This document shows, piece by piece, positions 21,557 through 23,515 of a stretch of 64,000 bases of DNA. Positions within the stretch are counted from its first letter, which is position 1; the number at the start of each line of letters is the position of its first letter. The notes below the pieces were generated by a model. The model was not told the DNA's origin and ran no database searches. It saw only the letters and a program-made list of their open reading frames with translations. Source of the DNA: Desulfobacterium sp. (GTDB lineage Bacteria > Desulfobacterota > Desulfobacteria > Desulfobacterales > Desulfobacteraceae); NCBI GenBank assembly GCA_016342325.1, contig JAEINR010000001.1, forward strand, positions 124,001 to 188,000, in the 5' to 3' direction. Made by a program: the position numbers and the translations under genes.

Positions 21557-23515
21557 CTAGCCGGTACTGAAGGCGGTAAAGGTCACCCGGTCCACGTACT
21601 GACCCGGCAACACCCGGTTCAACGCCTCTTTTATATTCCCTAGAAGATCTGCCTCGGTAATCTTGTCCACCTTTCCCGCTCCAAGGGCACTGCCCATGGC
21701 ATCGAAAACAAGATCTCTGTAAAGGGGTAAATGCTTGTTAATCGTTGTAAGCGCCCTGTGGTCGGAATAATCGATGGAGACACTTGCCGTCACATATGAG
21801 AGTCCGGCCTTCTTACCCGGAACCAGCAGAAAGAAATTTTCCATAACAATATTTCCAGGTCCGCCAGTGTTGCTTGGGGTTGTCAGATCGATCTCCACAG
21901 TCGCGACCTGGGGGTCTTGAAGCGACGATAGATCTGCCACCGGTTCCAAAGGAACAGGGATCGGCTCTGTGGTTGTAAAAAACTTGAGATACCCCACAGG
22001 CAGCACCACTGCCAGTACAAGAATAGCCGTACAGCAGGCCAGGACCTTTTTGGATCGATACCATTTCCCGGCGGCCACAGCCTCCCCACGTTCAGGTTCA
22101 GCCACCTGGGCCAACACCTCTTCCGCCTCTTCCAGGATCACCTGGTGCTCTTCCTGGTCAAGCTCGTCCAGCTCCGAGATAAAATCTACGTCCGTATCCA
22201 GATCACCGTCCAGATCGCCGAGGATGTCTTCATCCGCCTCTTCAGAGTCAACTAAGAGCTCATCAATGTCGTCCTGGGAGATGAGATCGCTCTCCCCGGA
22301 AAGAGATACAGGCTCATCATCCTTGAGAAGATCATCAATATCTTCCTGGGTAACCTGCTGCTCTTCGGCAACAGCCGTTTGAGGAACCGGATCCGGCCCC
22401 AGGAGTTCTTCCAAATCGATTTCAGGCGCAGGTTCTGGTTCTGGTTCTGGTTCTGGTTCTGGTTCTGGTTCTGGCTCTGGCTCTGGTTCTGGTTCAGGTG
22501 CAGGTGCAGGTGCAGGCTCTTCAGCCAGTAGCCGATCAATGGTCTCCTGGGTGACAAGGCAGTCTTCTACGTCAACAGCCTCGGACTCGTCGATCTGCAT
22601 TTCCTGGGTACCCGTGGGTTCAAGAACCGTTGAAGCAGGGGTGTCTGCATCGTTGGATACGAGCCGATCGATATCATCCTGGGAAACCAGTTCCTGGTCA
22701 TCCCCATCCGGTTCTTCGGCTGTGACAGCCTCCGGCTCTTCATCCAGCACACCGCCCATAAGCCGGTCGATATCATCCTGGGAAACCAGTTCCATGTCAT
22801 CCCCATCCGGTTCTTCGGCTGTGACAAGCTCCGGCGCTTCATCCAGCACACCGCCCATAAGTCGGTCGATATCATCCTGGGAGACCAGTTCCATGTCATC
22901 CCCATCCGATTCTTCGGCTGTGACAGCCTCCGGCGCTTCATCCAGCGCCCCGTTCATGAGTCGATCGATATCATCCTGGGAGACCAGTTCCATGTCATCC
23001 CCATCAGGTTCTTCGGCTGTGACAGGCGCCGACTCTTGATCCAGCGCCCCGTTCATGAGCCGGTCGATATCATCCTGGGAGACCAGTTCCATGTCATCCC
23101 CATCCGATTCTTCGGCTGTAACGGGATCCGGCGCTTCATCCAGCGCCCCGTTCATGAGCCGATCGATATCATCCTGGGAGACCAGCTCCATGTCATCCCC
23201 ATCCGGTTCTTCGGCTGTGACAGCCTCCGGCGCTTCGCCCAGCGCACCGTTCATCAGTGCATCGATATCATCCTGGGAAACCAGTTCCAGATCATCCATA
23301 TTTGATTCATCAGGGACGACATCATCCCCGGGAGGATCGACATCCAGGGAGACATTGTTCAACAGGCTGTCGATATCATCCTGGGAAAGCTCCCCCAGCT
23401 CATCTTCTGGGGAACTGATGGCAGCTTCCGCTTCATCCAGGGATGAAGAGCTCAACAGTTTGTCAATATCATCCTGGGATATCAGGGTATCGTCATCGGA
23501 ATTGGATGCAGACAT
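21557..23515 (-). CDS. FliL-like membrane protein with 12 FliM-type CheY-binding motifs
   Basis: The 652-residue protein has a long acidic cytoplasmic part, one membrane segment (about 490-512) and a C-terminal domain (about 550-652) with the FliL pattern: a YVTASVSIDY strand, a helix with LPLYRDLVFDAM, and the closing VDRVTFTAF strand. The tail contains twelve motifs of the form SQDDIDxLL/LM, starting near residues 13, 44, 80, 113, 146, 179, 212, 245, 278, 322, 388 and 413. FliM in this window starts with LSQDEVDSLL, and this N-terminal peptide is the known CheY-P binding site. Six motifs lie in perfect 33-residue repeats. A Pro-Glu run sits near 334-362. A canonical fliL exists at 33188, so this is a paralogue. 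The gene is between fliA (17 bases) and a small gene. CheY gathering at the motor is my inference. Confidence 0.85.
   Translation of the reverse strand: MSASNSDDDTLISQDDIDKLLSSSSLDEAEAAISSPEDELGELSQDDIDSLLNNVSLDVDPPGDDVVPDESNMDDLELVSQDDIDALMNGALGEAPEAVTAEEPDGDDMELVSQDDIDRLMNGALDEAPDPVTAEESDGDDMELVSQDDIDRLMNGALDQESAPVTAEEPDGDDMELVSQDDIDRLMNGALDEAPEAVTAEESDGDDMELVSQDDIDRLMGGVLDEAPELVTAEEPDGDDMELVSQDDIDRLMGGVLDEEPEAVTAEEPDGDDQELVSQDDIDRLVSNDADTPASTVLEPTGTQEMQIDESEAVDVEDCLVTQETIDRLLAEEPAPAPAPEPEPEPEPEPEPEPEPEPEPEPAPEIDLEELLGPDPVPQTAVAEEQQVTQEDIDDLLKDDEPVSLSGESDLISQDDIDELLVDSEEADEDILGDLDGDLDTDVDFISELDELDQEEHQVILEEAEEVLAQVAEPERGEAVAAGKWYRSKKVLACCTAILVLAVVLPVGYLKFFTTTEPIPVPLEPVADLSSLQDPQVATVEIDLTTPSNTGGPGNIVMENFFLLVPGKKAGLSYVTASVSIDYSDHRALTTINKHLPLYRDLVFDAMGSALGAGKVDKITEADLLGNIKEALNRVLPGQYVDRVTFTAFSTG
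22431..22516 (-). repeat. Hexanucleotide tract encoding a Pro-Glu run
   Basis: About fourteen 6-bp units, mostly GGTTCT on the plus strand with GGCTCT and GGTGCA variants towards one end, encode alternating Pro-Glu and then Pro-Ala. A 6-bp unit keeps the frame, so slippage would change length rather than switch the gene off. Confidence 0.88.
22655..23287 (-). repeat. 99-bp tandem repeats in the FliL-like gene (6.4 copies)
   Basis: Each 99-bp unit encodes 33 residues: one LVSQDDIDRLM motif plus the acidic linker GALDEAPEAVTAEE-DGDDM. Six full copies plus a partial one are nearly identical in DNA, which implies recent duplication or gene conversion. Confidence 0.95.

Follow-up and report, generated by a model that had tools for sequence, protein, structure and literature searches.

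In the textbook flagellar motor, CheY-P docks on the C-ring, at FliM together with FliN or FliY. FliY carries one copy of the CheY-binding peptide, and only a short N-terminal stretch of an ordinary FliL lies in the cytoplasm. The sequence LSQxEIDxLL is described as a widely conserved CheY-binding motif of FliM, and in Caulobacter FliM replacement of its I and D residues stops the binding of CleA and CleD as well as motor reversals, according to the accessible part of the source (PMC5677366). The portions available of two further papers indicate that FliM Asp12 pairs with CheY Lys119 (PMC7012829) and that the E. coli FliM peptide favours CheY-P over CheY about twentyfold (PMC7355467). In this study, we analysed a stretch of 64,000 nucleotides from Desulfobacterium sp. 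(the window), in which a membrane protein with a predicted FliL fold carries a peptide of this type twelve times.

The gene concerned, here called the array gene (21557..23515, reverse strand), encodes 652 amino acids by ORF translation, comprising an acidic tail bearing the motifs, one predicted membrane helix and a putatively periplasmic FliL-like domain. The predicted cytoplasmic tail (residues 1-480; 22076..23515, reverse strand) is strongly acidic, with 169 D/E against 10 K/R and a net charge of -159, and contains a Pro-Glu hexanucleotide repeat (22431..22499, reverse strand) that is likely a flexible spacer. The membrane helix was placed by hydropathy and by the structural model at residues 491-510 (21986..22045, reverse strand); the hydrophobic stretch starting at about residue 491, the basic residues before it and the modelled helix all agree, in line with the single membrane helix proposed when the DNA was first read. 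A second conserved element, QVVLE-like and placed before the membrane, was seen in 50 of 85 array proteins and in 2 of 26 array-less ones when a strict pattern was used. The FliL-like domain, delimited by profile and fold comparison, occupies residues 553-652 (21560..21859, reverse strand). The array gene encodes a second FliL, the canonical fliL (33188..33817, reverse strand) lying separately and adjoining fliM (32203..33183, reverse strand).

Scanning the array ORF with the pattern [ST]Q[DE]x[IVL][DE]xL[LMFV] gave twelve copies, all within the first 421 residues and with start-to-start spacings of 24 to 67 residues. Ten of them are SQDDIDxL and the other two are TQEDIDDLL and TQETIDRLL. From the N-terminus, and all on the reverse strand, they are motif 1 SQDDIDKLL (23453..23479), motif 2 SQDDIDSLL (23360..23386), motif 3 SQDDIDALM (23252..23278), five copies of SQDDIDRLM as motifs 4 (23153..23179), 5 (23054..23080), 6 (22955..22981), 7 (22856..22882) and 8 (22757..22783), motif 9 SQDDIDRLV (22658..22684), the variant motif 10 TQETIDRLL with Cys-Leu-Val before it (22526..22552), motif 11 TQEDIDDLL (22325..22351) and the membrane-proximal motif 12 SQDDIDELL (22253..22279). 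All twelve fit [LVI]-[ST]-Q-[DE]-x-I-D-x-L-[LMV], that is, LSQxEIDxLL with D for E and the usual L/V/I, S/T and L/M exchanges. A 99-bp (33-aa) tandem repeat of 6.4 copies (22661..23297, reverse strand) holds six to seven of the motifs, which means that copy number grew by duplication in that stretch.

An all-frame scan of the window found the strict motif outside the array only in FliM, as a single copy at the N-terminus (SQDEVDSLL, 33142-33168), with one looser chance match at 61724. When the 480-residue tail was shuffled 20,000 times, the mean was 0.0016 motifs and the maximum was 1. A search of the 6.67-Mb genome with the back-translated motif gave 14 matches, namely 11 in the array gene (rather than 12, as the TQETID copy misses the back-translated pattern), one in fliM and two in a chance-like setting (a 58-codon frame, and a protein that by eye resembles a MerR-type regulator joined to a methyltransferase), and a reversed control pattern gave 0 matches. 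The sequence-only reading of this DNA had described a tail with twelve FliM-type motifs and a FliM beginning with the same motif; the pattern scan and the shuffling control confirm both.

The motif is under strong protein-level selection. We compiled 356 copies of the motif from 54 different sequences. Position -1 is left free by the pattern, and every copy has I, L, V, F or M there; position 3 is likewise unconstrained and is D in 315. Where the pattern allows a limited choice, I occupies position 4 in 328 copies, D position 5 in 321 and L position 7 in 331, and position 6 is variable. The 30 FliM proteins that were read all have an N-terminal hydrophobic residue followed by a single copy of [ST]Q[DEN]EVD[SA]LL. 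Resemblance to the FliM peptide thus extends to the -1 hydrophobic residue and the I-D pair, in support of the original assignment. Comparison of the window genome with its congener G001 gave a dN/dS of 0.041 for the motifs, 0.393 for the linkers and 0.171 for the C-terminal domain, the synonymous divergence in the motif comparison being near 0.4. Across six genome pairs pN was lowest in the motif every time, and motif dN/dS was lowest in four of the five pairs for which it could be computed; in the fifth, which has very few synonymous changes, it was the highest.

The C-terminal domain is a FliL domain by its predicted fold and, more weakly, by profile. FliL was not detected in a Pfam scan of the whole protein, nor was the array protein detected in a PF03748 search of its own genome; recognition by a whole-protein profile fails, and the family is seen only with the isolated C-terminus and with the fold. 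Compared alone with PF03748, the C-terminal 170 residues scored 20.9 bits (E-value 5.5e-4) and so fell short of the 24.6 bits required for the family. Thirteen of 23 homologous C-termini matched FliL at an E-value of 1 or better, the best at 2.9e-9. Five FliL models top the NCBIfam list, the window member falling below the cut-off of each where one is shown, and a PDB profile search at an E-value of 10 returned two chains, both FliL, at 0.016 and 0.28. One-to-one hhalign comparison with the FliLs of related genomes gave 99%. An AlphaFold2 model with a mean pLDDT of 74.5, most of the domain being at about 90, retrieved FliL at all of ranks 1-10 in Foldseek, with E-values from 3.9e-4. In VIA-align, three FliL entries scored Z 12.1, 11.8 and 11.6, the top one over 98 residues at an rmsd of 2.9, and the non-FliL entries were prohibitin and stomatin SPFH domains at Z 9.2 and below. 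A Pfam scan up to an E-value of 10 found no FliM middle domain, FliMN_C or CheC in the array protein. The FliL-like C-terminal domain proposed from the letters alone is therefore borne out by the Foldseek and VIA-align results together with the weaker profile scores.

A search with the single protein returned 76 stretches, no relative among them, and an alignment of close relatives used as query returned 31 loci. The named close relatives belong to Desulfobacteraceae (Desulfobacterium, Desulfospira, Desulfobacter, Desulfobacula and Desulfotignum). A FliL-domain profile matched 135 of 340 sampled genomes of the order at an E-value of 1e-6, canonical FliLs included. The table of second FliLs covers 94 genomes, 67 of which have at least one strict motif and 27 none. 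The architecture search in related genomes that the sequence-only reading had proposed turned up motif-bearing second FliLs in 17 families of the order by the family labels of the search tool, or in 15 when only proteins with at least two motifs are counted. Motif counts among the motif-bearing proteins run from 1 to 16; one genome (G043) has two pieces on two contig ends with 15 and 8 motifs, which would make more than 20 if joined. Homologues that keep the rest of the protein without the motifs had been named as evidence against the gathering of CheY-P. Such proteins do exist, in 27 of the 94 genomes, but they mostly make up whole clades rather than representing decayed arrays.

Beyond the order, the FliL-domain profile matched 80 of 345 genomes of the phylum at an E-value of 1e-8, five of them from the same order, and the open frames outside the order were 381 aa at most among the matches listed. 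A tail-only search of 345 evenly drawn genomes at an E-value of 1e-5, which is an insensitive one, found the window genome, one genome of the same order (G054) and G072. The protein of the last has LGQDDLDALL repeats beside an apparent valyl-tRNA synthetase and was set aside as having a different motif. Eleven long-tailed second FliLs read across the phylum, one of them from within the order, have acidic tails with no motif, and no motif-bearing relative was seen outside the order in the genomes sampled. The simplest history would have the acidic tail already present and the motif arising and multiplying on it within the order.

We propose that the array protein is a putative membrane-tethered, multivalent dock for CheY-P at the motor, a proposal to which we give about an even chance. 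The conserved D at motif position 5 corresponds to FliM Asp12. A candidate reader of the motif is encoded in the window by cheY (52842..53216, reverse strand), at the position first given for it, next to cheX (53254..53736, reverse strand), a member of a CheY-P phosphatase family. The window CheY is closely similar to CheY proteins of solved structure. It aligns with the CheY sequence of 1f4v, a complex of CheY with the FliM peptide, over residues 2-122 at an E-value of 5.3e-42, and in three printed alignments it has Tyr and Lys at the places that we take to be Tyr106 and Lys119.

The number of motifs follows the number of CheA proteins. Among the 67 motif-bearing genomes, the count of CheA (PF02895) and the motif count correlate with a rho of 0.58 (p 2.6e-7, relatives being treated as independent); the means of 32 genera (rho 0.65) and of 17 families (rho 0.64, p 0.006) are fairer figures than such genome-level rank correlations. 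The correlation is 0.55 in the 54 most complete genomes and 0.54 after partialling on genome size. Partialling on a HisKA proxy for histidine kinases, which consists of first-look candidate numbers because scored matches stop at 17, left 0.41 (permutation p 0.002, 54 genomes). Adding the 27 motif-less genomes gave a rho of 0.57, or 0.43 after genome size. Within Desulfobacteraceae the rho was 0.38 and became weak after partialling on genome size (0.19), and within genera r was 0.34 (permutation p 0.053). G412 and G473, represented by a wrong frame, G561, with a short frame and an uncertain tail, the second piece of G043 and the loci found only by the alignment of close relatives were left out of these statistics, and G027, which has a broken frame, was kept with 3 motifs. 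Chemotaxis does not need the array, since 25 of the 27 genomes with a motif-less second FliL have CheA.

Four array genomes have no CheA among the matches listed: G007 (80% complete), G018 (97%), G036 (92%) and G467 (84%). Their strict motif counts are 2, 3, 2 and 2, respectively, and each has two fully intact motifs, compared with a median of 6 among the remaining 63 motif-bearing genomes. CheW was absent from G007, G018 and G036, the three in which it was sought. No close CheY was found in G007 or G018, where the best receiver was 35% identical, and in G018 no cheY, cheX or pilZ was found between the conserved neighbours. The cheY of G036 has in-frame TAG codons, and cheX was not found beside it. 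Motif decay was expected in the CheA-less genomes and was not found, the fraction of intact motifs being no lower than elsewhere (p 0.71). Taken together, these four genomes, two of them incomplete, suggest that arrays are short where chemotaxis is missing and are neither lost nor visibly damaged. A seemingly clean contrast within one genus (3 motifs in G018 against 6 and 6) was discarded, as two further CheA-rich congeners of G018 also have 3. Two further genomes without CheA (G586 and G460) carry 0 motifs, but the same is true of the family's 10 other representatives in the table, all with CheA. For the idea that the protein gathers CheY-P, put forward when the DNA was first read, the outcome is divided: the tracking of CheA number by motif number and the short arrays without CheA support it only indirectly, and the intact FliM motif in genomes lacking a sound CheY speaks against CheY as the sole partner.

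That FliM motif is intact in G007, G018 and G036, none of which has a sound CheY, so the motif peptide seems useful apart from CheY. This brings in the main rival to CheY-P as partner of the array, the MinD-type regulator of flagellar number FlhG, which the sequence-only reading did not name. The array might dock FlhG, collecting or sequestering it at nascent or finished motors, and such docking would adjust the number of flagella, the activity of FlhF or the assembly of the C-ring; we consider both the docking and these consequences rather unlikely. As far as the available parts of the sources go, FlhG binds FliM through the FliM N-terminus in monotrichous bacteria, during C-ring assembly (PMC12826062, PMC11236974), it binds the N-terminus of FliY in Bacillus (PMC12826062, PMC11236974, PMC12327844), and DQAxxLR is an FlhG motif (PMC12826062). 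The window flhG (24343..25239, reverse strand) begins MDQASGLR and therefore has this motif. Forty-two loci were examined, of which 34 have both flanks visible, seven end at contig ends and one is unrelated. In all 34, which were fetched by the array gene and include some genomes under two names, the array gene lies between fliA (23533..24312, reverse strand, in the window) and a small ORF (orf99) or a DUF6115 gene, and flhF-flhG-fliA-array form one block with flhG two genes upstream of the array gene. A fliK gene nearby has its own 54-bp tandem repeat. The constant position of flhG loses weight in that the gene stands beside fliA whatever the motif number, be it 0 (G046, G020), 2 (G036, G007) or 14 (L053), and no known property of FlhG would account for the rise in motif number with CheA number. 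On the other hand, both the FliM motif and two intact array motifs are kept in genomes without a sound CheY, and the best explanation for these surviving motifs is FlhG or too short a time.

It is improbable, in our estimation, that the array docks some other receiver-domain protein, such as a CheY-like or CheY-fusion stator regulator comparable to the Caulobacter Cle proteins, which are driven by c-di-GMP, or that it docks several partners together, CheY-P and FlhG among them. According to the accessible part of PMC5677366, this FliM peptide is also bound by Cle proteins, and CheY searches of twelve genomes found 4 to 25 receiver matches in each at an E-value of 1e-12. In G046, which lacks the array, a gene between fliA and the second FliL codes for a receiver-TPR protein, but this neighbour was seen in one genome only, and the genes that accompany the array are flagellar, with no receiver protein among the proteins tested. 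Very improbable is a tail that serves mainly as an acidic disordered spacer or brush and whose motif arose incidentally through tandem duplication and does little, for although the tail has its 99-bp repeat, fliK nearby has a repeat too and second FliLs elsewhere in the phylum have motif-less acidic tails, the motif dN/dS is 0.041 at a synonymous divergence near 0.4, the -1 residue is hydrophobic in 356 of 356 divergent copies and the motif occurs in 17 families.

Returning to docking of CheY-P, the membrane helix and the FliL domain would place the protein in the stator-associated ring, as judged from the FliL fold, and the long acidic and probably disordered tail would hang into the cytoplasm beside the C-ring, where its motifs would hold CheY-P. 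Because the same E. coli FliM peptide prefers CheY-P about twentyfold, high kinase activity would fill the tail with CheY-P. As the tail would sit beside the target, it would be a nearby reservoir or antenna for CheY-P and not just a sink, raising or buffering the CheY-P seen by FliM, and input from several chemosensory kinases might be pooled at the motor. With one or more copies per stator, the motifs around a motor would outnumber those of FliM severalfold. The data show the array and the selection on its motifs, the predicted FliL fold, the fixed position of the gene and the correlation with CheA number, from which we infer the localisation at the motor, the binding of CheY-P and the direction of the effect. 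More specifically, and with somewhat less than an even chance, a FliL paralogue in the stator ring might serve as a CheY-P antenna with up to about sixteen docks, its valency tuned to the number of kinases.

If the antenna exists, the some tens of FliM sites of a motor would be ringed by hundreds of additional sites for CheY-P, so that signals would be stored or filtered in an extra layer on their way from kinase to switch. We know of no described motor with such a layer. The family extends across an order of sulphate reducers. Binding of CheY-P by the array would open the buffering or concentration of CheY-P close to the motor to direct testing and would reveal how a single motor serves cells with many chemosensory systems; with FlhG as the partner, the protein would represent a previously undescribed anchor through which flagellar number is controlled. 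In both cases, a FliL domain that naturally carries anything from 0 to 16 motifs offers a ready experimental series.

The sequence-only reading knew of no described protein of this architecture, and our literature search, from which subscription journals were largely absent, likewise found, among the papers listed and as judged by listings and abstract openings, no description of a FliL-like protein with an array of FliM motifs. One of the closest known systems is MotF of Rhodobacter sphaeroides, which was compared by description: in the accessible part of the source it is an accessory motor protein that crosses the membrane once, has a large portion in the periplasm and works with FliL on the stator, features also proposed for the array protein, but it has 24 kDa, a membrane region at residues 54-74 and a short cytoplasmic part, and a motif array is not mentioned there (PMC7277832). 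In Caulobacter, as the available text of PMC5677366 describes, several regulators including Cle compete for the docking peptide of FliM; the Cle proteins are receiver-domain binders of that peptide, whereas the array protein offers it. FliL (PF03748) has one membrane helix and a periplasmic SPFH-like FliL domain, both of which are predicted for the array protein, and shares with it a gene in a flagellar cluster, but the FliLs of related genomes have a short cytoplasmic N-terminus in place of a 480-residue motif tail. The CheY-binding peptide of FliM and FliY (LSQxEIDxLL, EIDAL) has the same residues as the array motif, including the hydrophobic residue at -1 and the I-D pair; in FliM a single copy stands right at the N-terminus, whereas the array proteins, which are membrane proteins, have 1 to 16 copies. 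The FliL domain and the docking peptide are thus each known, and their multivalent combination is, to our knowledge, new.

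Besides the twelve FliM-type motifs, the tail of the array protein, the second FliL, carries a further short and conserved element, QVILEE (window 22127-22144), which lies between the motif array and the membrane helix. Homologues have similar elements at the same place in this interval, including QVVLE, DRVVLEE and QVILAE. With a strict pattern, the QVVLE-like element was found in 50 of the 85 array proteins as against two of the 26 array-less proteins, the second FliL homologues whose tails have no FliM-type motif. Within the array itself, motif 10 is a variant preceded by a cysteine (window 22526-22561), and such Cys-preceded variants, of the form CL[IV]TQETIDxL and similar, were present in 34 of the 113 proteins scanned.

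A tandem-repeat scan of the window revealed a 54-bp repeat in 9.4 copies (19792-20301) inside fliK (18985-20679, minus strand), the third gene downstream from the array gene. A single flagellar cluster holds two repeat-expanding genes, fliK and the array gene.

In genome G036, the cheY copy (about 5668-6033 of locus L249) has two TAG codons in frame, and searches of this genome for CheA and CheW gave no matches. The flagellar genes persist in G036, and chemotaxis is apparently decaying.

In G046 (L110 6492-8275), a gene for a receiver-TPR protein lies between fliA and the array-less second FliL, adjoining the latter. In G000, the other match to PF03748, the FliL family profile, is to a putative lipoprotein whose C-terminus resembles FliL (contig 8; L047 8230-9090). 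When this stretch was searched by BLAST with flagellar proteins from the window, no genes for them were detected. In G072, LGQDDLDALL repeats occur in an unrelated protein (L117 1036-2334), whose gene adjoins one encoding a putative valyl-tRNA synthetase.
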